Origin: Persicimonas caeni
Lineage (GTDB): Bacteria; Myxococcota_A; Bradymonadia; Bradymonadales; Bradymonadaceae
Direction: 5' to 3'
Assembly (NCBI RefSeq): GCF_006517175.1
Contig: NZ_CP041186.1
Location: 5,173,074 to 5,237,073 of the forward strand
DNA length: 64,000 nt
Shown here: positions 11,973 to 64,000 of the stretch, one piece after another
How the letters are laid out: each line of letters begins with the position of its first letter
Position numbering within the stretch: position 1 is the stretch's first letter
Translations under genes and position numbers: made by a program
The notes under the pieces: model-generated
The model's input: the letters and a program-made list of their open reading frames with translations, nothing else
Told to the model about the DNA's origin: nothing
Databases searched by the model: none

Positions 11973-12453
11973 GGGCTGCGGCGGAACGGTTTCCCGATCC
12001 GCAAAACAGAGCTTTCGTAGCGAGCGTATCTTCGATGGGATGTTCGATGAGTAAGTCCATCTTCGACGCGCTCGGCGGAGGCCGAGCCGGCAGTTTCGTC
12101 CTTGTGGCGAAACGGTCGGATTTGCCCGGTGCGGGTTTGTTGATGCGCCGAAGTTCGGTCGTGGCGTGAAGATGGGCCTGTGCCAAGTGGAGTGCCGCAG
12201 CGGCGTCGATGTAGCTAGTAAGTTGTGGCGTCGGGGTGGGCATGTGCCTGGCGCATGACCTATCCGAGGTGGCTTGAAAACGGGGCGGGCTTTGCCCGTT
12301 GACCTGTGGACATTACAAGAAAATCCGCGACGCCCATGCCGGCGAATTTCGCCGGTAGACACACCGGTATGCCGTCGTGGAGGCGCTGTGCGCCGGTGTC
12401 GAGTCATGGGGCTCGAGCCGTGGTTTTTGAGGGAGGATGGCCGCCTGGCTTTT

Positions 12454-12592
12454 TAGCTGCACAGGCTGATTCACCGGCGGGGTGAACCCGCCGGGGTCTT
12501 GGGGCTCGTCTGGGCGCCTCGGTTAGCTGCACAGGCTGATTCACCGGCGGGGTGAACCCGCCGGGGTCTTGGGGGCCGAGTCAATGGGCGGA
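12454..12592 (+). repeat. Two REP-like hairpin units, 70-bp period
   Basis: Units begin TAGCTGCACAGGCTGATTCA at 12454 and 12524. Each has the perfect stem CCGGCGGG-GTGAA-CCCGCCGG followed by GGTCTTGGGG. They are homologous to the 4095 array, but stem position three and its partner are both changed (C-G to G-C), so pairing is kept. Confidence 0.88.
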
Positions 12593-40747: not shown

Positions 40748-41863
40748 ATGAGCCAGACGCACCAAGAAATCTTACAACGCGAAGTTTCTTATTCCGGCGA
40801 AGGGATCTCGGTTCGCTCGCTGGAAACTTCCATTAGCCAAGAGCGCACTCGGCAAAACCAGAACGTCGAGGCGCTCAGCCGACTTCGCCAGCGTAATTCC
40901 GAGATCCAACAGGCGCTGGGCGAAGAGGTCAAAAAGCTCAAAGACATCACCAAACATTTGAGTCAGGAGCGCGAGCGCGGCGATTTTATGAGCGGCGTGC
41001 GCGAAGTCCTGGCAAAGCTGCCCTGGTTCGGCGAGCAGATCATCACGCGGCGTTCGATCGAGGAGCTCCTTAGAAAGCAATATGAACTCAGCTCGAGGCG
41101 GGTCAAGGAGGCGGCCGAGTTCGCCGATCGCCTCGAGGCGGCCAAGTCCGACCTGTTCGACGAGATCGAGCGGCTCAACCAAAAGATCGTCGAGTCGGCC
41201 AAAAACGAAGAGGTCGCCGCCGAGCGCGTCCTCGAGTTGACCAAGCTCAAAGACAGCCTGGAGGTCGAGTTGATGGCCTCCGATCGCTCCAGCTCTACGG
41301 GACGCGAGTTGCAGGCCCAGCTCGACAGGGCGCGGCGCAAGTTGGCCAAGCACTCCACGATGCTCAAGCTGTACAGCACCGCCGAGGAGCGGCTGGCCAA
41401 GTTGCAGAAGAACACCCGCCAGCTGGCCGAGACCATCGCGCATCTGCAGAGCGACATCACCGTGTACGTGACCGCGGCCAGCGAAAAGCTCGACCTCATC
41501 GCCGGCCAGATCCAGGCCATCGGCGCCGCCGCCGACGCCTCGGTGGTCATGCTCGAGCTCAGAAACTCGCTCGAGGCGATGACCGAGTCGGTCAATCACA
41601 CCACTCGGTTCGTCTCCGAGACTCAGGCGTACTTCCGTCAGAACGTCGACACGATGCTCGACGACCTGCAGTTGTACGACGCCGAGACCGAGCACGTCTT
41701 GGAGAGCAACCTGGCGATCAACCAGGGCTACGACGACCTGCAGATCGCCGACGCGGTCTCCTCGGCGCTGTCCCAAAAGATCGAGCGCGCCGCCCAGGAG
41801 GTCACCCTCGAGGACGTCAAAGAGGCGACGATCGAAGACCTCGAGAAGATGCGGATTAAGTGA
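40748..41863 (+). CDS. Long coiled-coil protein, 371 aa
   Basis: Not recognised. The ATG at 40748 is chosen because upstream sequence in the same frame is a shadow of the opposite-strand gene. Residues about 25-80 and 120-260 are predicted coiled coil (heptad Leu/Ala, many Glu/Lys/Arg). A conserved-looking central segment ('LAKLPWFGEQIITRRSIEELLRKQYELSSRRVKEAAEFADRLEAAKSDLFDEIERLNQ') and an acidic helical tail follow. There is no membrane segment. The arrangement is reminiscent of filament or scaffold proteins and of the toxic-anion-resistance (TelA) type, but no motif proves either. The next gene, 82 bases downstream, has the same strand and may be coregulated. Confidence 0.72.
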   Translation: MSQTHQEILQREVSYSGEGISVRSLETSISQERTRQNQNVEALSRLRQRNSEIQQALGEEVKKLKDITKHLSQERERGDFMSGVREVLAKLPWFGEQIITRRSIEELLRKQYELSSRRVKEAAEFADRLEAAKSDLFDEIERLNQKIVESAKNEEVAAERVLELTKLKDSLEVELMASDRSSSTGRELQAQLDRARRKLAKHSTMLKLYSTAEERLAKLQKNTRQLAETIAHLQSDITVYVTAASEKLDLIAGQIQAIGAAADASVVMLELRNSLEAMTESVNHTTRFVSETQAYFRQNVDTMLDDLQLYDAETEHVLESNLAINQGYDDLQIADAVSSALSQKIERAAQEVTLEDVKEATIEDLEKMRIK

Positions 41864-41945: not shown

Positions 41946-42980
41946 ATGGATATGGTTGACGAACGAGAAATCCTGCCGAATACGGCGATCAAATCGGCCA
42001 CTCTCGAGGGGGAGGCCGAGGCGGCGTACGTCGAGCGCCTGTATCGCATTCTGCGCGGCGCGCGGCTCAATCTGTACTACCCCGATTCGCGCAAGCTGCA
42101 GACGCACGTGCGCTGCATGAGCCCGCAGGTCCACCGGGGGCTCTACGATGGCATCGCGATCAACCTCGACTCGGGGCTGCCGACCTACCGGGAGTGGACG
42201 CGCGTGCAGACCGACGTGAGCATCGCCGACGAGCAGCTTCACAAGCTCGGGGCTCGCCGCGAACTCGAGCGCAAGGCGCGCCGAAGCGACGAGCCGATTC
42301 ACCAGAAGCTGCTCAAAAAGCACCAGTATTACAGCGATATCCGCGGCAAGGAGTTGTCGCCGCTGGGCAATATGGACGTGGCGCTCCGTCGCGTCGAGCA
42401 CGAGAAAAACACCGCCTATTTCCATGTGGTGCTCGACAAGCTCGACGCCTCCGGCCTGTTCGTGCGCTACTCCATCGACCTGGCCCAGACCTCCGGGGCG
42501 TGGAACAAGCAGGTGGTACGCCTCGACGAGGAGACCGCCGAGCACACCGAAGAGTTCCAGTCGCTCATCTACAAGTTCACCTCCCTCGACAGCGAATTTA
42601 CCTTCGCCAAACTCGCCGGTCTGGGCGGGTTGAGCGTCGAGCGCGTCGCCAAGGGCACGGTAGGTCCGATCTATTTGGCCCGCGAGCAGGCACCGGCGGC
42701 GCTCTCCCATCTATTCGACGGCGACGACGCCTTCGTGGCGATGTTCGCGCTCGACATGGTCGCCAACGACATCGCCGAAGACCGCGATAACGACCCGCTC
42801 GACGTGGCGATGACCGAGAAGATGTCGCCCGAGGCCAAGCAAACCTTCCACACCGCACGCGAGCGGTTGGGCGTGCGCACCTTTCGAGACCGCAAATTCG
42901 TGGTGCCTCGGCGCATGGTCCCCGCGGTGCGCGAGTTTTGCGAAGCGCAAGGCACCAAAAATATCGTCTACGGGGTCTGA
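41946..42980 (+). CDS. Unknown 344-residue cytoplasmic protein
   Basis: Not recognised. The ATG at 41946 is the first of two in-frame starts (the second 41952); neither has a ribosome site. The protein is mixed alpha/beta with highly charged regions ('HKLGARRELERKARRSDEPIHQKLLKKHQYYSDIRG') and no Cys-rich, membrane or signal feature. A sequence 'TSLDSEFTFAKLAGLGGLSVERVAKGTVGPIYLA' near residue 210 may be a structured core. It lies 82 bases after the coiled-coil gene on the same strand. A partner relationship with that protein is possible but not shown. Confidence 0.68.
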   Translation: MDMVDEREILPNTAIKSATLEGEAEAAYVERLYRILRGARLNLYYPDSRKLQTHVRCMSPQVHRGLYDGIAINLDSGLPTYREWTRVQTDVSIADEQLHKLGARRELERKARRSDEPIHQKLLKKHQYYSDIRGKELSPLGNMDVALRRVEHEKNTAYFHVVLDKLDASGLFVRYSIDLAQTSGAWNKQVVRLDEETAEHTEEFQSLIYKFTSLDSEFTFAKLAGLGGLSVERVAKGTVGPIYLAREQAPAALSHLFDGDDAFVAMFALDMVANDIAEDRDNDPLDVAMTEKMSPEAKQTFHTARERLGVRTFRDRKFVVPRRMVPAVREFCEAQGTKNIVYGV

Positions 42981-47130: not shown

Positions 47131-47161
47131 GTCCTATCCGCGGCTCCATCCGCCTAACCCG

Positions 47162-47282
47162 AAGACCCCGGCGGGGTTATCCCGCCCGGTGAATAAGCCT
47201 GCGAAGCTACGAGGCCGCGCCAGCGCGCCCCGAAGACCCCGGCGGGTTTATCCCGCCCGGTGAATAAGCCTGTGCAGCTAAT
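47162..47282 (-). repeat. REP-like units in inverted orientation
   Basis: Read on the minus strand these are two units of TAGCT(G/T)C..CAGGCTTATTCACC followed by a CCGGGCGGGATAAACCCGCC-type hairpin and GGGGTCTTCGGG. They belong to the same family as the 4095 and 12454 arrays, with altered but pairing stems. Confidence 0.82.
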
Positions 47283-47756
47283 GCGAGGCGCCCAACCTCC
47301 CATAAGACCCACGACTCGAGACCCACTCGCATCGAGACCCACTCGCAGCGCCCCCACGACGACATACCGGTGCGTCTACCGACGAAATTCGCCGGCATGG
47401 GCGTCGCGTGTTTGTTTGTGATTGTGATCGGTCAACGGGCTAGGCCCGCCCCGTTTTGAAGCCACCTCGGATAGGTCATGCGCTAAGCACATGCCCACCC
47501 CGACGCCACGACCTACTAGCTACATCGACGCCGCTGCGGCACTCCCATGGCACAGGCCCATCTTCACGCCACATCGCCTACATCGACGTTCCTACGAACC
47601 CGCACCGGGCAAATCCGACCGTTTCGCCACAAGGACGAAACCGCCGGCTCGGCCTCCGCCGAGCGCGTCGAAGAGGTACAGGCCGACATCTCCTCGAAGA
47701 TACGCTCGCCACGAAGGCTCTGTTTTGCGGATCGGGAAACCGTTCCGCCGCAGGCC

Positions 47757-47920
47757 AGGTTCTGTTCGACAACTCCGGACCGAGCCGAGGCGAGGGGATT
47801 CGGTGCAGATTCGGAGGCCGTCTGACGCAGGCGATGCAGCGCATCGTCGAGGACAGACGGCGCCGAAGATGCACGAATCAACCGCCTTCGGCGACGGGAG
47901 TGAGTTGTCGAACAGAACCT
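47757..47920. repeat. 164-bp palindromic element inside repeat copy 2
   Basis: AGGTTCTGTTCGACAACTC (47757-47775) pairs perfectly, all 19 bases, with 47902-47920. Inside, a further imperfect stem (GATTCGGTGC... with ...GCACGAATC) carries the apical CGATGC-AGC-GCATCG hairpin. The inner GCCGTCTG / CAGACGGC arms are perfect. Confidence 0.85.
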
Positions 47921-48206
47921 TCTGAGCCCGACCGGCTCAGCCACCAGCGTGTGAGCCAAGGCCAACTTCGACTCACCCGCCCGTTTCAAATTTGTGGGGA
48001 AATTCGTGCGCACGATACTGCCACCCCTCATTACGGTTTTCGGCAAAAAACAAAAATCGTTGCGTACTTTTTTTAGGATCGGCCCCTGACGGGGTGCACG
48101 GGCTGCATTGCTCTGATCGTCAAATCACACGGTCGAGCTCGAATCTACGGCCGAAGAGGCGCGACCGTTTGTTGAGCAAATCGATCCGATTTGCCATGGT
48201 GTCACC

Positions 48207-49883
48207 ATGAGCGAACTACAAAACATCTCTGTCAGCCTGCCCAAAGGGGGCTTCGACCGCGCCGGGGTGACCGCGGCGGTCAAAAAGTCGGGGCTCCCCG
48301 GGCAATTCGAAAAGCTCGCGCCGGGGCCGTTCGGCAAGACGGCGACGAGCCTGGGCGTGTTGGAAGGCGTCGTGGCCGCCTGTGACCTGGGCCTGGCGGC
48401 CGCCGAGGCCTTGCGCGGCGTCATCCTCGACGAGGCCGCCAGCGGCGCCTCGTTCGCCGTGCCCGAGCTCACCCGTCAGCAACGCCAGCTCGTGGCGGCT
48501 TTCCAGGTCGCCGTGACCGCCGACTCGGTCGAGCGTCATATCGCGGAGTGGGTTCACGAGCCGGCGGTCGAGGGCTCGCTCGAGATGGACGGGCTCAGCG
48601 ATCTGTTGGCGCACGACGGCCCGCCGGTCGAGCTTCTGGGGCGTGTGCTTCGCATCGCCGCGGCCTACGTGCAGATGAAGGCGCCGGCGCGCACCTCCGA
48701 CGAGGACGACGCTCCCGAGCCCGACCACGCCGTGGCCGCCACGCTCGCCGCGTTCTTCGAGTTGCTTCGCCGCGCCACGATCACCTACCTCAAGAGCAGC
48801 TCGCTCAAGCCCTTGCTCAGCGCGCTCGAGGCGCGCGAGGTGCGCGTCGCCGGCTACCCGTACGACGGGCTGGAAATCGCCGAGCGCATCGAGGTCGAGA
48901 CGGGCCTGCTACCCGTGTCGCCGAGCGATATCGTCGGCAACGACGAGTACGTCGAGGCCGGCCTCAAACTCGCCCGCGCGGTCGCCGGATACGACTTCGA
49001 GGCGGGCAAAAACCCCAAAAAGATCAACCCGGTGCTCTTCGGGCTGGGCCGCCCCGGCTCGGGCAAGACGATCACGGCGCACGCGGTCGGAAACTACTTT
49101 CTGAACTACTGCCGCGAGCGCGACGTTCCCGCCCAATTTCGCGTCATCCAGCGCACCGAGTGGGCGTCTAGCTACCAGAACGCCTCGGCGCAGAACCTCG
49201 TGCGCATCTTCCGCGAGGAGGTCTACGGCTTCGACGGCGTCAGCGGGGTGTACTGGCCCGACATCGACACCGCGTTTGCCTCGCGCAGCGCCCAGGGCCT
49301 GCGCATGGAGGAGAAGCAAAACCTGGGCGCCGTCTTCGGCGTCTTCGACGGCACGCTCCTGCCCAAAGACGGCAAGTGGTTCCTCATCTGCGACGCCAAC
49401 ACCCTGCACATGGACGAGGCGACGATCAGCCGCATCGCCCAGAACCCGATGTCGGTCGACGGGCCCACCAAACCCGCCCAATACGCCAAGATGATGCGCG
49501 AGTTGATGCTCGACGACGTCGCCCGCTTCGTCCCCGGCGACGACCTGACCTGGCAGAAGGTCGGCAAGCTATGCGTCGAGCACGACCTGTCGGGCCGCAA
49601 CGTCGAGTCGATCTGCAACAATATCCGCAGCCACATCCAAGACTTCGAGTACCCCGACGAGTACTTCCAGGCCGACGGCGCCCGCCGCAAAGAGATCATC
49701 GACGACCTGTGCAAGCCGGTCTCGTCCGCCCAGGTCCTCGAGTACGTCGAAGACTTCGTCGAGTTTCGCCAGGAGGCCGAGGACGAGGCCGAAGAGGAGA
49801 AGTTCAAACGCGAGGTCGAGTCGATCGTGCGCCAACTCAACGCCAGCCGCGCTGCGGCCGCGTTGACGGGCGAGGAAGGGTGA
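48207..49883 (+). CDS. AAA+ ATPase of unknown partner, 558 aa
   Basis: The ATG at 48207 follows the large repeat with no obvious ribosome site. The N-terminal 220 residues are helical and Ala/Leu/Glu-rich with no recognised domain. The AAA+ core has Walker A GRPGSGKT (281-288), Walker B 'GVYWPDID' (347-354), the sensor-1 like 'WFLICDANTLHMDEATISRI' with Asn398, and a likely sensor-2/arginine-containing lid to about 480. The C-terminal 60 residues are a charged coiled coil. The fold suggests a ring-forming remodelling ATPase. It is followed by a lipoprotein pair and the giant-gene cluster on the same strand, a suggestive but unproven association. Confidence 0.88.
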   Translation: MSELQNISVSLPKGGFDRAGVTAAVKKSGLPGQFEKLAPGPFGKTATSLGVLEGVVAACDLGLAAAEALRGVILDEAASGASFAVPELTRQQRQLVAAFQVAVTADSVERHIAEWVHEPAVEGSLEMDGLSDLLAHDGPPVELLGRVLRIAAAYVQMKAPARTSDEDDAPEPDHAVAATLAAFFELLRRATITYLKSSSLKPLLSALEAREVRVAGYPYDGLEIAERIEVETGLLPVSPSDIVGNDEYVEAGLKLARAVAGYDFEAGKNPKKINPVLFGLGRPGSGKTITAHAVGNYFLNYCRERDVPAQFRVIQRTEWASSYQNASAQNLVRIFREEVYGFDGVSGVYWPDIDTAFASRSAQGLRMEEKQNLGAVFGVFDGTLLPKDGKWFLICDANTLHMDEATISRIAQNPMSVDGPTKPAQYAKMMRELMLDDVARFVPGDDLTWQKVGKLCVEHDLSGRNVESICNNIRSHIQDFEYPDEYFQADGARRKEIIDDLCKPVSSAQVLEYVEDFVEFRQEAEDEAEEEKFKREVESIVRQLNASRAAAALTGEEG

Positions 49884-52239: not shown

Positions 52240-52370
52240 TCTTGCCCTCGTGCATCGTAGAACACACGTCGTAGCCTACGACGAGGCTTCTGCCAGGCTC
52301 GAACACGCGTCGTAGCGCTCGGCGAAGCCCGCATGCACCGTAGAGCGGACACCGCAGGCTACAAGACACG

Positions 52371-52493
52371 TTCTACGCCCGCAGCTCGGCCACCGTAGCC
52401 TACGACACGCGTTCTACGCCCACAGGTCGGCCACCGCAGCCTACGACACGCGTTCTACGCCCGCAGGTCGGCCGTCGTAGCAGACGATACGCC
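52371..52493 (+). repeat. 41-bp tandem repeat, three copies
   Basis: Units begin TTCTACGCCCGCAG at 52371, 52412 and 52453 (41-base period). They end with GCCTACGACACGCG in the first two copies and diverge in the third. Decayed units occur upstream from about 52262. This gene-free region (52088-52583) contains no further gene. Confidence 0.88.
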
Positions 52494-52583
52494 TTCGAGC
52501 CCCACGCGAGGCTGGACCAAGCGCCGCGGCCCACTTATCCTGCCCCGAGAACCAAGACCCAAGCCCTCAGCCAAGAACCATCC

Positions 52584-54320
52584 ATGGCCCAATCCGACGA
52601 TCTCGGCGTACTCGACAACCTCGTCACGCAGTTCAGCTCGCCGCTCGACTGTTTTCGTGAGCTCGTCCAAAACTCCATCGACGCGGGCAGCCCCTCGGTG
52701 GAGGTGTGGACCGAGTATATCCCCGGCGACGGCCACGAGGGCACCGTGGCGCTGCACGTCGACGATTACGGCGAGGGGATGGACGAGAATATCATCGACC
52801 ACCAGTTCACCCGCTTGTTCGCGTCGACCAAAGAGGAAGATCTGACCAAGATCGGCAAGTTCGGCATCGGGTTTGTGTCGGTGTTCGCGCTCAAGCCCAA
52901 GGCGATCTTGGTGCAGACCGGCCGCGGCGGCGAGTACTGGGAGGTGTTGTTCCACGAGGATCGCTCGTTCTCCAAGTCGAAGCTCGACGTGCCCGTCGAG
53001 GGCACGCAGCTCACGCTGTTTTTGGAGGGCGACATCCACCGCTACACCGAGCTCGTCGAGGGGATCCAGAAGACGCTCAAGCACTGGTGTAATCACTCCG
53101 AGACCGAGGTGACCTTCGAGGATCGCACCCCCGTCGACGGCGGGTTCTCGGACGTGGTTGTCATCAACGAGCCGTTCGAGGTCGAGGGCAAATGCCTGAC
53201 CCGCGTGGAGCACCAGGGCACCGAGATCGTGGCTGCCTACACCCACGAGCCCGTCTACGGCTTCTACAACCGCGGACTGACGCTCGCGCTCACCCGCGCC
53301 GGCGACGACGTGCTCGGGTTTCGGGCGCACCGGTTTCGCCACATCGCCTTCAAGATCAAGTCGCGCTACCTCGAGCACACGCTCAGCCGCGAGACGGTCA
53401 TGCGCGACGAGAACTACGAGAAGGCGATGAAGCTGCTCGAAGAGGCCGTCGACAAGCAGCTCTTCGGCGCGCTCGTCGACGAGCTGGAGCGTCTGGCCCA
53501 AAAGCCCGAGTGGACGCTCCCCGAGATCGACCGCTACGGCGAGTTCGTCTCGTACCTGGAGCACGAGCCGATCGAGCTGCTCGAGGCGATCGAGAAGCGC
53601 CCCTTCATCCGCCTGCTCGACGGCAAGACGATCCACCTCGACGCGCTGTACGAGGCGTGGAAGCGCGACGGGCGCGTGCTCGTGGCCGACGGGCCGAGCG
53701 ATCTGACCGACGAGCTGTCGGCGCTCGACGTGCCGGTGGTCTACGGCCGCCCGCCGACGAGCTCGACTTACGACCACCCGCTCGAGCCGGTGCGCCGGCT
53801 CATTCGGCGCTACTTGACCCACCGCGTCGAGACGACGCTGGTCGGGCGCATCCGCAAGTTCTTCGGCCAGAACCTCAAGACGAAGACGAGCGGCTCGCTC
53901 ACTGCCCCCGAGGACGTCTACCTGCCGGTCGTCCTCGACAAAGAGGTCCCCGAGGAGGCCAAGCCGCTGGTCGAGACGGCTGCGCGACTGCTCAAAGAGA
54001 TCGACGCCGGCTACCGAAAGCTGACCACCTGCGAGCTCGGCTCGCCGGACGACGACGCGCCGCTCTTCGTGCTCGCGCGCACGCTCGGCCCGGTCATGGC
54101 ACGCCCCCCGCGAGGCGTCGCCGAAGATCGCCCCGCGAAGCGTCCCGAGGCCGCCGTAAACCGCGACCACCCGCATTTCCGACGCCTGCTGCAGCTGCAC
54201 GCGCACTCCCCGGAGATCGCGTCGTATTGCCTGGCCAAGAGCCTCTTGCTGACCGAAGACCGCCTGCTCGACGCCGACGTCGACCTGATCGCGGCGAGCA
54301 TGCCCGCCGCAGCGCAATAG
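52584..54320 (+). CDS. HSP90/GHKL-type ATPase (founder of the giant-gene cluster)
   Basis: The 578-residue protein has complete Bergerat-fold motifs: N-box E26-x3-N30-x2-D33 ('FRELVQNSIDA'), G1 D61-x-G63-x-G65 ('DDYGEGM'), G2 'IGKFGIGFVSVF' (90-101), and 'GTQLTLFLEGD' (140-150). Residues about 252-292 contain 'LEHTLSRETVMRDENYEKAMKLLEEAV', which parallels the HSP90 middle-domain 'NVSREMLQ' catalytic-loop motif. It resembles HtpG/sacsin-type proteins rather than a histidine kinase, because no H-box or receiver is present. The C-terminal half is helical with no known domain. The ATG at 52584 is preceded by a repetitive tract ('AAGAACCATCC'), not by a ribosome site. It is followed 62 bases later by the first giant. 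Confidence 0.85.
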   Translation: MAQSDDLGVLDNLVTQFSSPLDCFRELVQNSIDAGSPSVEVWTEYIPGDGHEGTVALHVDDYGEGMDENIIDHQFTRLFASTKEEDLTKIGKFGIGFVSVFALKPKAILVQTGRGGEYWEVLFHEDRSFSKSKLDVPVEGTQLTLFLEGDIHRYTELVEGIQKTLKHWCNHSETEVTFEDRTPVDGGFSDVVVINEPFEVEGKCLTRVEHQGTEIVAAYTHEPVYGFYNRGLTLALTRAGDDVLGFRAHRFRHIAFKIKSRYLEHTLSRETVMRDENYEKAMKLLEEAVDKQLFGALVDELERLAQKPEWTLPEIDRYGEFVSYLEHEPIELLEAIEKRPFIRLLDGKTIHLDALYEAWKRDGRVLVADGPSDLTDELSALDVPVVYGRPPTSSTYDHPLEPVRRLIRRYLTHRVETTLVGRIRKFFGQNLKTKTSGSLTAPEDVYLPVVLDKEVPEEAKPLVETAARLLKEIDAGYRKLTTCELGSPDDDAPLFVLARTLGPVMARPPRGVAEDRPAKRPEAAVNRDHPHFRRLLQLHAHSPEIASYCLAKSLLLTEDRLLDADVDLIAASMPAAAQ

Positions 54321-54325
54321 CATCC

Positions 54326-54380
54326 CAAACCCCCAGTTCCCCTAAACCCCCAAACCCCCAAACCCAAGCCCCTAACCCAT
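54326..54380. repeat. CCCTAAACCCCCAAACCC simple-sequence leader
   Basis: About 50 bases of C3-5/A3 permutations run almost up to the ATG at 54383 ('CCTAACCCATCCATG'), with no purine-rich ribosome site. A similar A/C-rich tract precedes 52584. Confidence 0.75.
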
Positions 54381-54382
54381 CC

Positions 54383-57300
54383 ATGTCCTCGATCGATCAA
54401 GTCATCGCCCGCTCCCGCCAACCCGGCGGCTTCAAGGAACGCAAGCGCTTCACCGTCGCTCGCCAGCGCGCGATCCGAAAGATGCGTCAGTTCGCGCTCG
54501 CCGACCCGCACTACTATGTGCTCGAGCTGATCCAGGCGGCGGTGGCCAACCGGGCGACCCACGTCGACCTGCGCATCGAGAAGAAGAGCTTCGGCCTGTC
54601 GTATATCGGCGGCGGGTTCACTCAAGAGGAGCTCGCCCAGCTCTTCGACTTCTTGTTCGCGTCCAAAGAGGACTTCGAGCACGGCGACATTCGCCAGCTC
54701 GCCCTGGGGGTCAACGCCCTGATGATCATGGAGCCCAAGCGCATCATCATCGAGTCGGGCGACGGGACGATGGGCGGGACGACGCGCATCGAGATCAAGA
54801 GCAGCGAGAATACCGTCGACGTGGGTACGCCCGACGCGGCGCTGCGGGGGACGTTCATTCGCGCCGAGGGGTTGAGGCGCTCGAAGATTCGCGGCAAGTC
54901 GAACCTGAGCTCGACCGACTACGGCCCGCCCGAGTGCTCGGCCATCGAGAATCGCTGCTTGGCCGCGCCGGTGCCGATCATCGTCAACGACGAGCCGGTC
55001 TTCGGCTACTCGAGCGTGCGCACCCCGGTCGTGTTCGGCTACCGCAACGTGGTCACCTTCGACGAGGGAGACCTGTACGGCTCCATCGGCATCGCCGAGC
55101 AGCGCCACAAGGAGATGTTCAAGCTGTTGACGTGGGGCTCCTGGATCCAGTCGCTCGAACACGATCTCATCGACGGGGCGCAACTGGGCGGGGTGGTCGC
55201 CTACGACCGGCTCAACAAGACCGCCGACCACTCGGGCATCGTCAAGGACGCCACCCTCCACGAGATGTGGGCGCGGCTCAAGCCGTACGCGCACAAGGCG
55301 CTCAGCGGGCAGACGGGCAAGGCCGTCTTCCAGATCGCGCCCCTCGGCGGCGATTTGCTCGAGCCCCGAGAGCTTCGCTCGATGCTGCACGAGCACGGTA
55401 CGGCGGTGGTCGTGCCGCCGAAGCTATCGCCCAATGGACCCGCAGGAGAGCGCGCCCAGGAGATCGGACGCGTGCTCGAGGCGCCGGTGCTCACGGTCGA
55501 CGAGGCCGAGATGCCCACGCTTCGCAACCTCGCCGGCAACGACGTGCGCCTCATCCGGCCCGACCTGAACAACCCCGGCGAGCTCGCGTTCTTCAAAAAG
55601 CCCACCGCCAAAGCGCCGCCGCGCCCGTGGCTCATCGGGGCGACCGAGCTGTCGCCGATCAGCCTGGGCAACTTCGTGGCGCATCTGTTCCACGAGGAGA
55701 TCGTCCCCTCGGAGCCGTCGGCCATCAAACAGATCTTGAGCCGACTGGGCGGGCGTCCCTCCGACGCCGAGAAGATCATCATGTACGCCGACGAGCTTCG
55801 CCAGGGCGTGAACTCCACGGAGACCTCGCTCATCGACCAGCTCGAGAGCACCAGCGAGATCACCGGCACGATCTATACGCCCGACGACGTCGGCTCCGGC
55901 GAGAATCACAATCGGCGCGAGCTGTGGGTTCGCGTGCGAAGCGTCGACCGCATCGTGTGGCAGGGCGCAGTCACGAGCGCCTATCCGGGCCACGTGCTCG
56001 ACATCGAGGTGCCGTCGGCCTCGCCCAGCGCGCTGCTCGAGCCGATCGTCGAGGGCGCCGACGCCTCGTTGGCGTGGCTCATCGCCGAGGTGATGGCGCG
56101 CTACGCCATCGACGACCTCGAGAAGACCGCCGAGCGCACCCTCGAGAGCCTCGGCCAGGCCGACCTGGAGCCGGGCTCGACCGGCGCGCGGGTCGCCCTG
56201 GCGGCCCTGGCGCGTGACGCGGTCAAGAGACTGCGCTCGACGGGTTCGCCTGAATCGGGCGGCTCGGCCGGCGAGGATAGCGGCCCGAGTGTGCGCTTCT
56301 CGCTGGTGGGCAACGAGGCGAGCCTCGACCTGCTGGACGTGCCCGTCTTTCGCACCCTCGACGGCATGGCCACGACCATGCGCGACTTGGCGTGGATGCT
56401 CGAGCAGACCGCCGGGCTGGTCTACGGGGTCATCCCGGAGGTGACGCCCGACCTCGAAGGTCTCGACCCGAGCTCGATCTTGGAGCTCGACCTCGAGACC
56501 GAGCGCCTGCTCATGCAGATCGTCGGCGAAGGCGCCTACGTACGCGTCGACTGCCGCGACGTGCTCGCCGAGGACGAGGCGTCGGGCTGGAAGGTGCGCG
56601 ACGTGGCGCTGGGGCTGCGCGAGTACCCCAACGGTGCGCTGCTCGCCGAAGGTGCGGAGGGCCGGCCCGACGAGGCGACCGTCGAAAAGCTCGTCCAACA
56701 ACTGGTGCGCCAATTCGGCGGCGCCGGGGTAGACGGCGACGACGAGGAGCTTCGCCGCCAGGCGGTGCGTCACCTGCAGTATTTTGTGTGCTACCGTGCC
56801 GTCCACGAGCCCAACAAAGAGACCTACGGCGTCGACACGATGGGGCTCTTCCTCGACGGGCACGGCCGCGTCGTCTCGCTCCGCGACATCCTGCGCGGCT
56901 TCGAGGCCCACGGCCGCATGGTGATGGTCGACGGCCGCTCGAGCGACGTGTGCGAGATGGGCTCGCTGTCGAGTCGCAAGACGGCGGGCGACGCCGAGCC
57001 GCCCGAATCGCTGATGATGAACACCTGGGTCTTCGGACTGCTGCAGCCCTTCGGCGAGCTCACCGGCGCGTTCGACTTCGACCTGACCGACGCCGAAGCC
57101 GCCGACGTCGAGATCACCCCCGAGACCGCGTTCGTCGCCAGCACGCAGATCGAAGGCGAGAATATGAGCGGCCGGTTGGGCCTGCCCGAGGTGCCCGTCG
57201 AGAACCCGTCCATCGCGGTCATCTCGGCCGACAATCAGCAGGTCTTCCAACTTCGCCAGCCGGCCATCGAGCACGGCATCGTCGGGCTCATCAAGGTCGA

Positions 57301-58303
57301 GGCGGGAGGCGTCGAGGCGCGTTGGAAGGAGATCTATTCGGCCGCTCGGCACGCCGGTTGGCGTGTGTTGAGCTCGCTGACCGAGGGCTTGGCCGAGCGC
57401 CAGGGTGACGACGATTACGAGCGCATCTTGGCGCAACTCTTCGACTTCGCCGCACGCCACATGCGCCTGGCCAAGCGCCCCGACGGCACGGTGTTCTACG
57501 AGAACAACCACGGCCTCGCCCAGCGCATCTTGGACATCCCGCTCTTTGCGACGACCCGCGGCATCCCGGTGAGCGCGCAGCGTCTCATCAACGAGTTCTG
57601 CGTCGAGCAGACCCGCGGCGGAAGCTTGCTCGAGAGCACGCGCATCGTGCTGACCGACGACGTGCCCCAGGTGCTAGTCGACTGGGTCGAGCGTCACCTT
57701 CGCCCCGAGAACGTCGCCCGACCGCCGGCCCATTCTGCCCAGCATCCTGCCGTTGCCAGACAAGCCACCGATGGACAAGCCGCCGATGGACAAGCCGACG
57801 GTCAGTTGGCCGCCGACGGCGGCGGGCCGACCGACGCCCGCGCGCTCTCCAAGGCGCTGGAGCGCTCACTCGGCGAGATGCGCCCCGACGAGCACGTCAA
57901 GGTGCTCGCCCGCGACTATTTCCGCCTCGACCCCGACGAGGAACCGTCCGCAGAGGCGCTCTCCAAGTTCAATATGCGCGTGTGGGTCGTCGACTTCGCC
58001 AACCAAAAGAAGAAGCGCACCGTCCCCAGCGACCGGGTCTACTACTTGCTCCAGGAGGCCGACGACGAAGACGCCTTCGTCTACGCCAACGGCCGCCCGC
58101 CGGTGCTCCTGATCAACTCGCAACACTGGCTCGCCCAGCAAGCCCTGCTGGCCGGAGCCGGCGACTCGCGCGCGTTCGCCTGGCTGTTGCTGAGCGCCTA
58201 CTCCCACATCAACGCCTTGCTCTCGCCGGTGACCAACGACCACGAACTCGAGTTCCAACGCCGCGTGGCCGATGCGCTCGAGCGAGGTGTTCTGACAAGA
58301 TGA
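54383..58303 (+). CDS. Giant pseudo-GHKL protein 1, 1306 aa
   Basis: This is an undescribed-looking giant protein. The N-terminal 130 residues resemble a degenerate GHKL/HSP90 domain: 'YYVLELIQAAVAN' (44-56) sits where the N-box E-x3-N-x2-D should be, but Asn and Asp are Ala (52, 55). 'YIGGGFTQEEL' replaces the G1 motif, and 'LALGVNALMIMEPKRIIIESGDGT' parallels G2. A middle region has the family motif LNKTADH (277-283) followed by 'IVKDATLHEMWARLKPYAHKAL'. A Pro/Gln/Ala-rich linker lies near 1140-1175, and the C-terminal domain ends 'VTNDHELEFQRRVADALERGVLTR'. Stop and next start overlap (ATGA). It could act as a scaffold or regulatory subunit of the preceding GHKL ATPase. Confidence 0.85.
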   Translation: MSSIDQVIARSRQPGGFKERKRFTVARQRAIRKMRQFALADPHYYVLELIQAAVANRATHVDLRIEKKSFGLSYIGGGFTQEELAQLFDFLFASKEDFEHGDIRQLALGVNALMIMEPKRIIIESGDGTMGGTTRIEIKSSENTVDVGTPDAALRGTFIRAEGLRRSKIRGKSNLSSTDYGPPECSAIENRCLAAPVPIIVNDEPVFGYSSVRTPVVFGYRNVVTFDEGDLYGSIGIAEQRHKEMFKLLTWGSWIQSLEHDLIDGAQLGGVVAYDRLNKTADHSGIVKDATLHEMWARLKPYAHKALSGQTGKAVFQIAPLGGDLLEPRELRSMLHEHGTAVVVPPKLSPNGPAGERAQEIGRVLEAPVLTVDEAEMPTLRNLAGNDVRLIRPDLNNPGELAFFKKPTAKAPPRPWLIGATELSPISLGNFVAHLFHEEIVPSEPSAIKQILSRLGGRPSDAEKIIMYADELRQGVNSTETSLIDQLESTSEITGTIYTPDDVGSGENHNRRELWVRVRSVDRIVWQGAVTSAYPGHVLDIEVPSASPSALLEPIVEGADASLAWLIAEVMARYAIDDLEKTAERTLESLGQADLEPGSTGARVALAALARDAVKRLRSTGSPESGGSAGEDSGPSVRFSLVGNEASLDLLDVPVFRTLDGMATTMRDLAWMLEQTAGLVYGVIPEVTPDLEGLDPSSILELDLETERLLMQIVGEGAYVRVDCRDVLAEDEASGWKVRDVALGLREYPNGALLAEGAEGRPDEATVEKLVQQLVRQFGGAGVDGDDEELRRQAVRHLQYFVCYRAVHEPNKETYGVDTMGLFLDGHGRVVSLRDILRGFEAHGRMVMVDGRSSDVCEMGSLSSRKTAGDAEPPESLMMNTWVFGLLQPFGELTGAFDFDLTDAEAADVEITPETAFVASTQIEGENMSGRLGLPEVPVENPSIAVISADNQQVFQLRQPAIEHGIVGLIKVEAGGVEARWKEIYSAARHAGWRVLSSLTEGLAERQGDDDYERILAQLFDFAARHMRLAKRPDGTVFYENNHGLAQRILDIPLFATTRGIPVSAQRLINEFCVEQTRGGSLLESTRIVLTDDVPQVLVDWVERHLRPENVARPPAHSAQHPAVARQATDGQAADGQADGQLAADGGGPTDARALSKALERSLGEMRPDEHVKVLARDYFRLDPDEEPSAEALSKFNMRVWVVDFANQKKKRTVPSDRVYYLLQEADDEDAFVYANGRPPVLLINSQHWLAQQALLAGAGDSRAFAWLLLSAYSHINALLSPVTNDHELEFQRRVADALERGVLTR

Positions 58304-58380
58304 ACCCCACCGACGACATCATCGCCCAACGCCGCAAAGGCGCCGCAGATGGCGAGCGCGGCGAGTTTTCGGTCGACCGG
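58232..58380 (+). repeat. 149-bp direct repeat across a gene junction, copy 1
   Basis: This stretch covers the last 24 codons of giant 1 and the first 27 codons of giant 2. It matches 61732-61880 at 145 of 149 positions. The offset between copies is 3500 bases, almost one gene length. Confidence 0.95.
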
Positions 58381-61300
58381 TCGCAGGCGCTCGAGAAGAT
58401 GCGCCGGTTCAGCCTGGGCGACCCGCGCTACTACTTGCTCGAGTTGGTGCAGGCCGCGGTGGCCAACGAGGCGGCGCAGGTCAACGTCGAGCTGTACGGC
58501 GACGGTGGGCAACGCGGTGATATGCGTATGCAGTGGGACGGGCAGGGCTTCTCCGAGCTCGAGCTCATGCGCCTGTTCGACTTTCTGTTCATCTCCGATG
58601 ACGACCCCGGGTGCGCCGACACAATCTTGCTCGCCCGCGGCCTCAACTCGATGTTGCACTTCAAGCCGGACCTGGTCAGCGTGACGAGCGGCGACGGGAC
58701 CTTGCAGGGGACTCGGCGCATCCTCTTGCGTGACGCGCAACCCAACCCCATCGATTGGATCGTGCGCGAGCCGCTCGACGGCGTGCGCATCGAAGCCGAC
58801 GGCCTCGAAGATTGGCTGCTGCCGCGCAAAAAGGGCGAGCCGCTGCGTGAGATCGGGTTGTTGGCCGATAAATGCATCTCGCCGTCGCTGGCGGTGGTGG
58901 TCAACCGCCACATTGTCTCCGATTGGAGCAGCTCTTACGGCTCGGCCCCGCAGGGCGAGGACGATTATATCGACATCGATGAGGGTGACCTGTACGGGCG
59001 GTTGTGGTTCCCGGCGCAGACCGAGCGGAGCCGCTACGACTTGATGACCTGGGGCATCAAGATCGAGCAGGTCCCGCGCATGGAGGCGCCGTTCAACCGC
59101 CTGCGCGGCGCGATCAACTACAACAAGCTCAACAAAACCGCCGACCACGCCAAGATCGTGCGTGACGCGGTGCTCGACGAGATGTGGGCGCGTGTTCGGC
59201 CGTACGCGATGGCGCTGCACGCACGCAGCGAGGGCGCGGTGCGCCACGCGGTGCGTCCGATCGATGGTGAGCGGCTCGAGCCGGCGGCGCTTCGGCGCTT
59301 TCTGGACGACGCCGGGCGCGTGGTCGTGGCCTCCCCCGAAGACGTGAGCATGCCCCAGCGGCGCGCTCGCGCCGAGCGGTTGGGCGAGGTCCTCGAGGCG
59401 CCCATTTTGGTGACCGAGAGCACCGAGCACCCCACGCTGCACGCCCTGGCGGGGCAGCGGTGCGAGGTGATCATCCCCGATTTGTCGACCCCCTACGACA
59501 CCGGCGTGCTCGCCGGTCCGCCGCGCGAGCCCCCGGCGAGGCCGTGGCTCATCGAGCCGCTGGCCGTCGAGTCGACGACGATGCGGGCCTTGGTCTCCGG
59601 TGCGGTCGCTCGCGGTTGGCTCTCCGACGAGCGTGCCGAGGGCGTGCTGCGGACGACCGGGGCCGACGAGCCGGTGCGCATGCGCGTCTACACCCCGAAG
59701 GCCGACAGCGCAGCGGGCACCGATTGGGTCAGCCTGATAGTTTGCGGCCGTGAGGTGTGGCGCGGCGATGTCCCCACATCGCATGCGGGCCACCTGCTCG
59801 TCGTGGAGCTCGCGCCCGTGTCGCCGAGGGCGATCGAGCCTTCGGCGGTGCGGCAATCTGCGGGGTGGCAACCTGATGGTGCGGCCGATTCGGTCGCCGC
59901 CGCGCTGGCCGCCTACGCGGTCGAGCATGCTCGCAACATGCTCTCGATCGCCAATCAGCGTGCGATCGAGGCGCTCACACGTGCGGAGGTCGCGCCTGGA
60001 AGCAATGGCTCGCGCTTGGCGCTGGCGGCGTTGGCCAGGCGGGTGATGTTGCGTGTGCGCAGCGGCGCCGACGGTCGACGCGATCTCACTCTGGCGGCGC
60101 TCGACATGCATGCGAGCAAGCTGCTCGAGGTCGTTCTCTTCGAAACGGCCGCCGGCCGGCCGGTGAGGGGACGAGACCTCGAGGCGTTGCTGCGACGCAA
60201 CCGGGGGCTGCTCTACGCGGTCGAGGCTGCGTCAGATGTCGAGGCTGCGCCAGAAGAGGACTTGGCGGGGCACAAACCCGACGACGTGCTCGTCGCCGAC
60301 CGAGAGCTACACACGCTTCTGGTGGACGTCTTCGGCGCCGATGCCGTCGTCCAGCTCGACAGCTGCGCTTTCGACGGCGACGCCGATGTCTCGGCGCTCG
60401 TGGCCCACCTGAGCCAGCAGGGGCAGGGCTGGGAGGTCCAGGAGCAGCGCCGCAGAGCGCGGCGTCGGCTGCTCGAGCTGGCGTTGCGAGGAGGCGCAGA
60501 GCCTGCGCACCACGAACTCGCATCGCTGCCGCTCGTCGAGCTCGCCGACGGTGGCCGCTGCAGTGTCGAGTCGCTGCGACGTTGGAGCGAAGAGGGGCAC
60601 CCGCTGGTGATGTTCGACGGCAAGAACGCCGACCTCGTCCCTTCGATGGGGGCACAGGGCGCCCAGACGAGCGAAGGTGCTGTCTCGGGGCCACCGCCCG
60701 CGCTTCGGATGGACTCGCGTCTGTTTTATCTGCTCGAAGGAGTCGCGCGTATCGAGGGCGCCTTCGACTACGACCTGTCGCATTGGGAGGCGAAGCTAAA
60801 CGCGTCGACCCCGGAGCAGGCCTTCGTCGAAGCCATCGAGATCGACGAGTCCTACGCGTCGGGCTCGATCGGCCTCGCCGTCGAGTCTGTCTCGTCGCCG
60901 GCGATTGCTGTGGTCGAACGGTCGACCCTGCGGGTTCACCAACTCCGCGAGCCGGCCCAAAAGCTCGGGCTGGTCGGCCGCGTTACGATCGACGAGACCT
61001 TCTTCGACGAGTCCGACTCACTGCACGACGCGATTTTGGAGTGGGGCACCGCGCTACTCGACCGGCTCGTCGACCAGATCGCACGGCCTCGCTCGCCAAA
61101 CCACCAAGAGCGCATCGAGCGTTGCCTTCTCGAGTACGCAGGCCGGCAACTCGAGCTCGTCGCAACGCCAGGCGGCTGGTGTTCCTGGAGCGTCGGCGAC
61201 GAACTCGCCGCGCGAATCTTGGAGCTGCCGCTCTTTCGCTTGCAGAGCGGGGCGGTCGCATCGGGAGGACAACTCGCCACGCGCTTTTCGCTGCGCCGCG

Positions 61301-61803
61301 GCCAACAGGAGGTCGTGCTCGCCGACGGCGCTCCCGCTCACCTCGAGGAGTGGAGCGCAAGTTATCTGACCGACGCACGCGTCCGCTACGACGCCCCCCG
61401 CCCGGAGCCGACGCCTCGCCCCCACTCCCCCGAGGCGACAGACGACCTCCTCCAGCTACTCGAACGCCTGCTCGAAGAGCTTCGCCCGGACGACGCCAAG
61501 CAAGCCGCGCCTCGACGCGTCCTGTGGAGCACAGGCGAGTTGTGGCCCGTCGGGACGCACCAGCCGATCTGTCACTACACCGCGCCATCGGGCTCCCAGC
61601 CGACCATCGTGCTCAACCCCAAACACTGGCTCGTCATGCGAGCCCGCCAGGCGCAGCACCTGCAGCCCGACCATATCGCGTGGCTGTTGCTCGCCATCTA
61701 CGCTCACGTCAACGCGCGCCTCGAGCCGGTTACCAACGACCACGAACTCGAGTTCCAACGCCGCGTGGCCGATGCACTCGAGCGAGGTGTTCTGACAAGA
61801 TGA
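58300..61803 (+). CDS. Giant pseudo-GHKL protein 2, 1167 aa
   Basis: This second member of the tandem family starts at ATG 58300, overlapping the stop of giant 1 by four bases (ATGA), so translation is coupled. 'YYLLELVQAAVAN' (44-56) again lacks the N-box Asn and Asp. 'WDGQGFSELELMRLFDFLF' (79-97) retains a G1-like D-G-x-G core (Asp80), and 'ILLARGLNSMLHFKPDLVSVTSGDGT' is the G2-like loop. The signature 'YNKLNKTADHAKIVRDAVLDEMWARVRPYA' is present, and the C-terminus is nearly identical to giant 1 over the last 24 residues. The middle is divergent and helix/strand mixed, with scattered Cys. ATP binding is doubtful; a structural role alongside the GHKL ATPase is likely. Confidence 0.85.
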   Translation: MNPTDDIIAQRRKGAADGERGEFSVDRSQALEKMRRFSLGDPRYYLLELVQAAVANEAAQVNVELYGDGGQRGDMRMQWDGQGFSELELMRLFDFLFISDDDPGCADTILLARGLNSMLHFKPDLVSVTSGDGTLQGTRRILLRDAQPNPIDWIVREPLDGVRIEADGLEDWLLPRKKGEPLREIGLLADKCISPSLAVVVNRHIVSDWSSSYGSAPQGEDDYIDIDEGDLYGRLWFPAQTERSRYDLMTWGIKIEQVPRMEAPFNRLRGAINYNKLNKTADHAKIVRDAVLDEMWARVRPYAMALHARSEGAVRHAVRPIDGERLEPAALRRFLDDAGRVVVASPEDVSMPQRRARAERLGEVLEAPILVTESTEHPTLHALAGQRCEVIIPDLSTPYDTGVLAGPPREPPARPWLIEPLAVESTTMRALVSGAVARGWLSDERAEGVLRTTGADEPVRMRVYTPKADSAAGTDWVSLIVCGREVWRGDVPTSHAGHLLVVELAPVSPRAIEPSAVRQSAGWQPDGAADSVAAALAAYAVEHARNMLSIANQRAIEALTRAEVAPGSNGSRLALAALARRVMLRVRSGADGRRDLTLAALDMHASKLLEVVLFETAAGRPVRGRDLEALLRRNRGLLYAVEAASDVEAAPEEDLAGHKPDDVLVADRELHTLLVDVFGADAVVQLDSCAFDGDADVSALVAHLSQQGQGWEVQEQRRRARRRLLELALRGGAEPAHHELASLPLVELADGGRCSVESLRRWSEEGHPLVMFDGKNADLVPSMGAQGAQTSEGAVSGPPPALRMDSRLFYLLEGVARIEGAFDYDLSHWEAKLNASTPEQAFVEAIEIDESYASGSIGLAVESVSSPAIAVVERSTLRVHQLREPAQKLGLVGRVTIDETFFDESDSLHDAILEWGTALLDRLVDQIARPRSPNHQERIERCLLEYAGRQLELVATPGGWCSWSVGDELAARILELPLFRLQSGAVASGGQLATRFSLRRGQQEVVLADGAPAHLEEWSASYLTDARVRYDAPRPEPTPRPHSPEATDDLLQLLERLLEELRPDDAKQAAPRRVLWSTGELWPVGTHQPICHYTAPSGSQPTIVLNPKHWLVMRARQAQHLQPDHIAWLLLAIYAHVNARLEPVTNDHELEFQRRVADALERGVLTR

Positions 61804-61880
61804 ACCCCACCGACGACATCATCGCCCAACGCCGCAAGGGCGCCGCAGATGGCGAGCGCCGCGAGTTCTCGGTCGACCGG
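61732..61880 (+). repeat. 149-bp direct repeat across a gene junction, copy 2
   Basis: This is the counterpart of 58232-58380 (four mismatches), covering the end of giant 2 and the start of giant 3. The strict conservation contrasts with the divergent bodies of the genes and invites unequal recombination that would delete or duplicate one 3.5-kb gene. Confidence 0.95.
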
Positions 61881-64000
61881 GCGCAGGCGATCGCCAAGAT
61901 GCGCCAATTCGCGTTGGCCGACCCGAGCTTCTACCTGCTCGAGCTGATTCAGGCGGCGGTCGCCAACGGCGGGGGCTATCTGAATATCGACCTGTTTCGG
62001 CTGCGCCGCGACAGCGACGACCTGAAGATGTGGTGGAGCGGGCGCGGGTTCAGCGAGTTCGAGCTCGAGCGCCTCTTCGACTTCCTGCTGATGAGTGAGG
62101 ACGAGCCGGGGTGTGCCGACACGATCTTGTTGGCGCGCGGGGTCAACGCGATGCTGCACTTCAAGCCCGCCAAGATCGTCATCGCATCGGGCGACGGCAC
62201 CCTCGACGGATCGGCGCAGGTGGTGATCTCGCGCGACGGCGACATCGTGGTCCAAGAGCCGCCCGAGCCCATCGGCGGTGTGAAGATCCACGGCGACGGA
62301 CTGTACAATTCGCTGCTCGCTCCCGAGCCCGAGCAGCAGTTGGGCGACCGCGAGGTGCAGTTGCTGCGCGAAAAGGTTATCGCTCCGGGCGTGCAGGTGA
62401 TGCTCAACGGGCATTTTATCTCCGATTGGAGCAGCGCCTACATCGAGCAGCGCGTCTGGCAGAGCGCGTATATCGCGATCGAGGAGGACGACCTGTACGG
62501 GCGGCTGTGGGAGGCGCCCCATGGCGGCCGCGGCGAGTTCGACCTGATGACCTACGGGGTCAAGGTCGAGCGCGTCGCGCGTGAGGATGCGCCGTTTTAT
62601 GCGTTGCACGGGGCGGTCAACTTCGACCGGCTCAACAAGACGGCCGACCACGCTAAGATTGTGCGCGACGAGGTGCTCGAGGAGTTGTGGGCGCGGCTTC
62701 GGCCCTACGCCGAGGCGCTGCACGCCGACCACGACCAGATCACCTACAATATTCGGCCTCTCGACGGGACCCTGTTGAGCCCGCCGGAGCTCGTCGAGCT
62801 CATCCAGACTCACGAGCGGGCGGTCGTGGTGCCTCCGCAGGTGCTTCGCGACGGTCAGGCGAAGGCGGCGCGTCGGATCGGTGAGGCGCTCGAGGCGCCG
62901 GTGTTGCTCGTGTCGCCCGACGAGCGGCCGACGTTGCGCGCGTTGGCCGGAACGAGCCTCGAGCTCGTCGAGCCGCGTCTGGACGAGCAGCGTGACGTTG
63001 ACGTGTTTACCGGACCGGTGGCGGGACCGCCGCCACGGCCCTGGCTCGTCGAGCCGGTGAGCGTCGAGTCCATCCCCGTCACCGAGTTCATCGAGCACAT
63101 GTGCGACGTCCATCACCTCGACGACGTCGACCAGCACGACAAGCAGGCGCGTGCGAGGCTGTCGCGGACGCTCGGCTCGGTGGGCGAGGTGTTCATGCGC
63201 GTCTACACCCCGGCGGGCGACACCGAGGCCGGCGTCTTGAACAAGCGCTGGGTCAAGCTGCTCGTGTGCGAGCGCGAGGTCTACAGCGCGCGGTTTCCCT
63301 CTCCCTTCGCCGGCCACGAATTGTTCATCGAGCTTCCGCCGGCGTCGCCGACGTTGCTCGATCGCAAGGTCGCCACGGACGCCGGACAGGTGTCGATCGC
63401 CGAGCTCGTCGCGCGCACTTGTGTCGAGCTGGCTCGCCATCGCCTCGAGGAGGCCAATGCCCGCGCCCTGGCCGCCCTGAGCCGCGTCGAACTCGAGCCG
63501 GGCTCGGCCAGCTCGCGCATGGCGCTGCACACGTTGAGCCGCACCGCGATGTTGCGTGTGCGCGGCGGGGTGATCGAGGTGTCGACCTTCGACGAGAAGC
63601 GCGCGCCGCTGCTCGATATGCCGTTGTTCGAGACGCTTGGAGGCGAGCCTGCTGGTCGAGCCGTCAGTGCGCGTGACCTCGCCGCTTTGCTCCGACGCAG
63701 CCGCGGTCTGCTCTTTGGCGTGCGCTCGTCGGACCCCGAGCTCCCCGCAGGACTCGAGCCGGAGGACGTCTTGGTGTTGGACGCCGAGCAAGAACAGCTG
63801 CTCGTGGCCACCCTCGGCGCCGACTGTTACGTGCGCGTCGACTTGGCCGAAGAGGCGCGCAACGCTCCAAACGCACGCTGGGTCGAGCAGGAGCGCCGGC
63901 GCCATCAGCGCCGCGCGACTTGGCGTCAGTGCCTGCAGCACTCGTTGTGTGGGCGCACAGAGGGCTTCGAGCCGGCGCAAAGGCTGGTTATCGACACGGC
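61800..64000 (+). CDS. Giant pseudo-GHKL protein 3, cut by window end
   Basis: The third family member begins at ATG 61800 in the same ATGA overlap and remains open to the window end (733 codons plus two bases). Motifs: 'FYLLELIQAAVAN' (44-56, Asn/Asp of the N-box absent), 'WWSGRGFSEFELERLFDFLL' (78-97, where Ser replaces the G1 Asp), 'ILLARGVNAMLHFKPAKIVIASGDGT', and 'FDRLNKTADHAKIVRDEVLEELWARLRPYAEAL'. The first 35 residues are almost identical to giant 2 because of the junction repeat; the rest is divergent. By comparison with its relatives about 400 more residues should follow, and a further copy may lie beyond the window. Confidence 0.85.
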   Translation, partial: MNPTDDIIAQRRKGAADGERREFSVDRAQAIAKMRQFALADPSFYLLELIQAAVANGGGYLNIDLFRLRRDSDDLKMWWSGRGFSEFELERLFDFLLMSEDEPGCADTILLARGVNAMLHFKPAKIVIASGDGTLDGSAQVVISRDGDIVVQEPPEPIGGVKIHGDGLYNSLLAPEPEQQLGDREVQLLREKVIAPGVQVMLNGHFISDWSSAYIEQRVWQSAYIAIEEDDLYGRLWEAPHGGRGEFDLMTYGVKVERVAREDAPFYALHGAVNFDRLNKTADHAKIVRDEVLEELWARLRPYAEALHADHDQITYNIRPLDGTLLSPPELVELIQTHERAVVVPPQVLRDGQAKAARRIGEALEAPVLLVSPDERPTLRALAGTSLELVEPRLDEQRDVDVFTGPVAGPPPRPWLVEPVSVESIPVTEFIEHMCDVHHLDDVDQHDKQARARLSRTLGSVGEVFMRVYTPAGDTEAGVLNKRWVKLLVCEREVYSARFPSPFAGHELFIELPPASPTLLDRKVATDAGQVSIAELVARTCVELARHRLEEANARALAALSRVELEPGSASSRMALHTLSRTAMLRVRGGVIEVSTFDEKRAPLLDMPLFETLGGEPAGRAVSARDLAALLRRSRGLLFGVRSSDPELPAGLEPEDVLVLDAEQEQLLVATLGADCYVRVDLAEEARNAPNARWVEQERRRHQRRATWRQCLQHSLCGRTEGFEPAQRLVIDT

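Follow-up and report, generated by a model that had tools for sequence, protein, structure and literature searches.

Why does a bacterium encode an intact HSP90-type ATPase together with a row of giant relatives whose own catalytic residues have been replaced? The question is raised by a stretch of 64,000 nucleotides (nt) of Persicimonas caeni (contig NZ_CP041186.1, positions 5,173,074 to 5,237,073), referred to below as the window and used for all coordinates unless another source is named; the genome is a single contig of 8,047,206 bp. At 52584..54320 lies the gene for a 578–amino acid GHKL/HSP90-like protein, H, predicted to be an active ATPase. It is followed by genes for three giant proteins of a family designated P: G1 (P1; 54383..58303, 1306 amino acids), G2 (P2; 58300..61803, 1167 amino acids), and G3 (P3; 61800..64000), which crosses the window end. 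These genes, like b, a, and c described below, are on the + strand. According to the rest of the contig, the full end of G3 is the equivalent of position 65282, 1282 nt past the window, and the complete protein has 1160 amino acids. An earlier interpretation of the window, referred to here as the sequence-only reading, had described such an ATPase followed by at least three giants on the same strand, all of which are present; no fourth giant was found downstream of G3, where the next gene is on the opposite strand. On balance, we slightly favor the view that two unequal subunits encoded at this locus form a machine of the HSP90 type, with H as the ATP-burning subunit and P as a non-hydrolysing scaffold.

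The residues expected of a working GHKL ATPase are present in H. In a comparison of 111 distinct H and 119 P proteins, the N-box E/N/D, the G1 box DxGxG, and the G2 box GxxGxG of the Bergerat fold were found in every H protein, and residues E26, N30, D33, D61, G63, G65, M66, G91, G94, G96, and R269 were invariant. In the window copy, these motifs correspond to the N-box RELVQNSIDAG (52656..52688, containing E26, N30, and D33), the G1 box DDYGEGM (52761..52781), the G2 box or lid GKFGIGF (52854..52874), and the middle-domain Arg loop LEHTLSR (53370..53390). R269 of this loop is regarded as the counterpart of the catalytic Arg of HSP90 on the basis of the fold match and knowledge of the family. 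H also matched HATPase_c_3 (4e-9) and PF13589 (36.9 bits, with a cut-off of 25). An AlphaFold model of H built on a 28-sequence alignment (predicted local distance difference test score, pLDDT, of 86.8) showed a compact layout of an N domain, a middle domain bearing the Arg loop, and a C-terminal part, as in the HSP90 fold. Its best matches in PDB were full-length Hsp90 structures (Foldseek E value of 4.5e-18; Z of 20.0 with 459 aligned residues and a root-mean-square deviation, rmsd, of 10.1), which covered nearly the whole H chain.

H is not, however, an ordinary HtpG. Pfam and NCBIfam place it in the GHKL/HSP90/sacsin-N group, and its best-scoring NCBIfam models are of the HSP90 and sacsin types, yet it remains below the HtpG equivalog cut-off (34.3 versus 371 bits in NCBIfam) and shows no match to PF00183. 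Its scores for sacsin domains are 46.2 bits against a cut-off of 50 and 30.5 against 32.8, whereas a second H protein of the same genome exceeds the latter with 38.4 bits; P has no sacsin match. The ordinary HtpG of P. caeni is encoded separately, at 689303-690571 of the genome, and the H–P set is additional to it.

The corresponding residues have degenerated in P. The sequence-only reading had noted that the Asn and Asp of the N-box are replaced by Ala in the giants, and both replacements are seen in their E-L-I-Q-A-A-V-A sequence (ELIQAAVAN at 54524..54550 in G1). Across the family, the Asn is replaced by Ala in 85 of the 119 proteins, by Ser in 14, and by other residues in the remainder, with no Asn among the residues listed, and the Asp is mostly replaced by Ala, Leu, or Phe. 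That account was right about the loss of Asn and Asp but passed over three features: the N-box Glu persists in 97 of 119 P proteins (82%), the G1-box Asp falls in a gap of the H/P alignment, and G91 and G94, two of the three G2-box Gly residues, are substituted. P does not have the full set of Mg-binding Asn, adenine Asp, and G2 glycines, and is, as judged from these residues, a pseudo-ATPase. The middle domain tells the same story: LNKTADH of G1 (55211..55231), G2 (59128..59148), and G3 (62631..62651), which had been placed at the position of the HSP90 middle-domain motif, indeed aligns with LEHTLSR of H at the Arg loop. In P this position is mostly Gln or His, with Arg kept in 14 proteins, and LNKTADH is by this alignment a degenerated Arg loop.

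The fold of the N and middle domains of P has nevertheless been kept according to structure modeling. In the AlphaFold model of G3 (pLDDT of 85.9), residues 16-379 matched the N and middle domains of Hsp90 (Foldseek, 7.5e-12; Z of 17.9 with 278 aligned residues and an rmsd of 5.2), and both this model and profile comparison with hhalign bear out the Bergerat-like N-terminus ascribed earlier to the giants, for which a comparison of predicted folds with HSP90 had been proposed. An hhalign comparison of the P and H alignments gave a probability of 98.5 and an E value of 3.5e-15 over 318 columns. Comparison by segments was collinear (N with N, 2.5e-14; middle with middle, 7e-6; C with C, 5e-5). 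In addition, P residues 560-735 matched H residues 325-450 (1.3e-6), and this H module had two further weak matches in P, in segments 4 and 5. The collinear segments and the repeated matches suggest that P is a version of H lengthened through duplication of the 325-450 module. H proteins were also found with a profile made from P only, and in a tree of the merged alignments H and P formed two separate clades, a split that merging of alignments itself favors. P is thus, as far as residues, profiles, and models indicate, an expanded and inactivated paralogue of H, in agreement with the earlier proposal of an active ATPase accompanied by expanded inactive paralogues. P evolves fast, with a mean identity of 26% versus 40% for H.

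The giants of the window themselves share 34% (G1 and G2), 36% (G1 and G3), and 47% (G2 and G3) identity. The genes of G1 and G2 and those of G2 and G3 each overlap by ATGA. In the last block of the three proteins identity rises to 80-96%, and the DNA of the G1/G2 junction is 80% identical to that of the G2/G3 junction across 495 bp; both observations suggest that the ends were recently duplicated or underwent gene conversion. The gap 5' of H contains a short tandem repeat (52346-52502; offset of ~41 bp, 84%).

Relatives of the locus were located by a search of genome contigs with the H alignment, given that a contig scan with G1 as query found no relatives, probably because at most a few short peptides are conserved. 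Among 116 distinct H genes scored, 90 were followed on the same strand by a P gene no more than 500 bp downstream. Most of the others had P upstream, behind an insertion sequence (IS), in diverged form, or in an extended gene call; the partners in Nannocystaceae that were initially scored as missing, for instance, are diverged P proteins (hhalign probability of 98.7, E value of 1.7e-16). When such cases were allowed, about 97 to 105 of the 116 genes were paired by our own tally. Neighboring H and P genes occur in Myxococcota and also outside it, in Elusimicrobia and Eremiobacterota-like genomes. The pairing is not due to chance, and the survey of gene order that had been suggested as a check yielded the H–P adjacency in about 100 loci. 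In one metagenome-assembled genome (MAG; locus L207), H and P form a clean single open reading frame (ORF) of 1886 amino acids; an apparent fusion in locus L163 was rejected, given that Ns separate H from P. The divergence of H correlated with that of the neighboring P (r of 0.78 for 79 pairs, with species history included; permutation maximum, 0.15). The near-obligate adjacency, the correlated divergence, and the fusion support indirectly the hetero-oligomer that the sequence-only reading had suggested. P. caeni itself has a second H–P pair (locus L006:9559-16310; ~2474558-2481309 of the genome), with an IS-like transposase pair between the two genes and a TerB-domain gene after them (L006:16442-17473). 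One and the same two-gene IS-like element, made up of transposase ORFs, is found several times in the genome (window 2291-3922; L005:8874-10453; L006:11733-13373).

Clustering of neighboring genes yielded three further families, a (26 loci), b (20 loci), and c (8 loci), all of which are present in the window and which the earlier interpretation, correct with regard to H and the giants, missed as members of the set. Gene b (40748..41863, with the start codon set by homology) encodes a coiled-coil protein of ~371 amino acids, the partner of a; gene a (41946..42980) encodes a protein of 344 amino acids that is found beside H and P in other genomes; and gene c (48207..49883; profile score of 679) encodes a protein of 558 amino acids that lies just upstream of H in other phyla. 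The Walker A motif (G-x-P-G-x-G-K-T), D-I-D, and sensor residues are conserved in c, and PF00004 is over its cut-off in loci L187, L153, and L125, with 21.1 versus 21.2 bits for the window copy; by these motifs c is an AAA ATPase. Matches of the b coiled coil to ZorA, SMC, and Laminin were rejected because of low scores.

In other phyla, the five genes form an unbroken b-a-c-H-P run. The order b-a-c-H is contiguous in loci L153, L157, L166, L176, L179, L187, L227, and L230, usually with P next. Among 379 genomes of the phylum, H was present in 84, a in 54, b in 46, and c in 14. Gene a co-occurred with H in 50 of its 54 genomes (expected, 12; p of 8e-35) and b in 43 of 46, both well beyond what chance would give, a and b were found together in 45, and all 14 genomes with c also had both a and b. 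Several families carry H without a and b, and the loci fetched from these consist of H and P alone; H and P thus form the core of the set, which b-a-c extends. Other arrangements were also seen: in six loci (L060, L061, L063, L122, L123, and L154), b-a does not lead H–P but sits beside it on the opposite strand, in convergent orientation, and P directly follows b, with no H nearby, in L229 (genome G265). A 0.93-kb inverted repeat pair of 87% identity is located at 11642-12574 and 47158-48093, with the latter copy a short way upstream of c. Elsewhere in the window are a tandem repeat of ~66 bp in exact copies (4095-4341) and a gene (44676-46946) for a 756–amino acid protein in which a putative protein-isoaspartate methyltransferase-like N-terminus appears by eye to be fused to a GspE/PilB-type ATPase.

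Among the matches listed, H was found beyond the phylum in MAGs of Elusimicrobia, Candidatus Eremiobacterota, and UBP9. Plesiocystis, Enhygromyxa, Nannocystis, and Archangium are among the named carriers of H in that listing; the H–P set is carried by mostly predatory or large-genome bacteria. The Eremiobacterota-like genomes (those of L151, L153, L157, and L203; loci L245-L264) each contain many P-like matches, in numbers that range from 31 to at least 45, with at least 45 scored in a single genome. Their P-like proteins are mostly of 350-750 amino acids, several with TPR-like tails as seen by eye.

From these observations we infer a heteromer in which control and labor are divided. H would bind and hydrolyze ATP. 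In P, the N and middle fold is kept, but the residues that bind Mg, adenine, and phosphate are gone, as is the middle-domain Arg, and the protein appears to have grown between its middle and C-terminal parts by way of copies of a module that is single in H. The two may dimerize in the manner of HSP90 or MutL, and only H would bind and hydrolyze ATP to drive opening and closing. The long arm of P would be the client-binding or scaffolding part, and several P genes may provide several specificities for one ATPase. In many genomes b, a, and c would work with H–P, perhaps delivering or remodeling clients. The nearly constant pairing of H with P, often joined by an AAA gene and two families without a library match, suggests an unstudied multi-protein chaperone-type machine. 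The fuller proposal of a multi-component HSP90-type machine of b, a, the AAA protein c, H, and P, with one active hub and a family of dead, interchangeable client-binding scaffolds, is put forward tentatively, as something that could well prove wrong.

Several points weigh against the two-subunit machine. Motif loss does not prove the absence of nucleotide binding in P, in which the N-box Glu is so often retained. The heteromer and the ATPase activity are predicted from sequences and models, the folds of H and P also resemble those of other GHKL proteins (MORC, GyrB), which makes a nucleic-acid role conceivable, the lone L207 fusion could be an assembly artefact, and the co-divergence is confounded by species history. 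A strict one-to-one partnership is not universal, with some Eremiobacterota-like genomes having H with b-a-c and P genes elsewhere. In P. caeni, unrelated genes separate b-a, c, and H–P, and co-occurrence was counted by genome without phylogenetic correction. Four rival explanations were weighed. Decay or selfish expansion of P with no role in the function of H would fit the loss of catalytic residues, the divergence of the tandem copies, and the signs of gene conversion at their ends; we regard it as highly improbable, given that long open frames persist across phyla, residues E48, A53, G81, and D290 are conserved, P co-diverges with H, and its model is well folded. A machine for DNA or RNA topology like MORC or MutL, with H–P dimers as a nucleic-acid clamp and c as loader, gains from the common GHKL-S5 fold and from scores of the P model for the MORC2 ATPase (Z of 16.4) and GyrB (Z of 15.2) that are nearly equal to that for Hsp90. 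It is nonetheless improbable: the top-ranking match of H, like that of P, is Hsp90, HSP90-type and sacsin models score best for H, and neither nuclease, CW, or DNA-binding families nor an association with DNA repair in sampled neighbors were found.

Two further explanations concern life style and defense. P. caeni YN101 is a predator (PMC7188933), as is Bradymonas sediminis FA350 (PMC7188933, PMC7460792), a probable carrier, and these and the named genera above would suit a machine for a predatory or multicellular life style, such as one that assembles a surface or secretion apparatus or controls its quality. No operonic link to secretion or pilus genes was found, however, and H is also present in Elusimicrobia and Eremiobacterota-like MAGs, whose life style is not known, which renders this explanation unlikely. 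Defense against phages or other conflict, which the sequence-only reading had offered as a guess, would have P as a sensor or effector carrier and H as an ATP-dependent switch, as assumed for TmtA (Tiamat). The patchy spread of H, the fast evolution and paralogue expansion of P, the large host genomes, and the weak TmtA profile matches to H are in keeping with it. A tblastn search with H, however, matched none of 50,697 phage records and none of 72,556 plasmid records, and viral contigs yielded four short generic GHKL matches. The 90 neighbors sampled across loci were for the most part housekeeping genes of metabolism, transport, and replication, with few PADLOC matches, mainly to one kinase-type family, and do not support a defense-island context. 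No effector domain was recognized in P, and the guess of defense has thus fared poorly; we would not expect it to be the function. The two-subunit HSP90-type machine remains the best-supported interpretation.

No named system was found to fit the locus, in agreement with the sequence-only reading. P, a, and b are nameless in Pfam, NCBIfam, PHROGs, and PADLOC: the first three contain no family for them, PADLOC gave weak, chance-level matches, Pfam showed no match of note in all 42 P proteins examined, and a sequence search of PDB with P, a, and b returned no useful match or relative. HSP90, including HtpG and TRAP1, is normally a homodimer, with client choice set by co-chaperones. It shares with H the fold, the N and middle domains, the Bergerat residues, and the middle-domain Arg, and is the top structural match for H and for the N and middle regions of P; H differs in being partnered with pseudo-HSP90 giants, in falling under the HtpG cut-off, and in coexisting with a separate HtpG. 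If our interpretation is correct, a lineage in which the active ATPase is split from expanded dead paralogues would offer a natural test of the separate contributions of the Arg loop, the client arm, and the second site for ATP. TmtA of Tiamat is likewise a large protein with an N-terminal GHKL ATPase, but it is a single protein, whereas the H–P set has at least two; its profile (1486 positions) matched only residues 18-106 of H (E value of 3e-6) and no P, a similarity confined to the ATPase domain, and no mobile-element association was found here. MORC and MutL share the GHKL and S5 folds, and MutL heterodimers are known, but no MutL model reached its cut-off in the NCBIfam scan. The NTP-dependent ternary conflict systems (PMC7159879) are also large multi-gene ATPase systems of multicellular bacteria; a text search of that paper found none of the terms GHKL, HATPase, Bergerat, and sacsin, and no GHKL system, and no inactive HSP90 paralogues in bacteria were found in the open-licence papers searched.

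Sacsin, named earlier as the nearest comparison, stands as such for architecture. It combines an HSP90-like N-domain with a long repeated region, in SIRPT/SRR repeats that are 1,100 amino acids or longer (PMC3629688), and the same succession, with about 1,100-1,300 amino acids per unit, is seen here, with H near or over the sacsin-domain cut-offs. P, by contrast, has no sacsin match, and gene organization differs: sacsin joins several units, DnaJ, and HEPN in one chain, whereas the active and inactive units here are separate genes, and neither DnaJ nor HEPN was matched by Pfam in H or P. The locus adds new protein families, absent from the four databases and present in culturable predatory bacteria, and, if the machine is as we propose, it would be a bacterial counterpart of sacsin, a protein with giant repeats about which little is understood.

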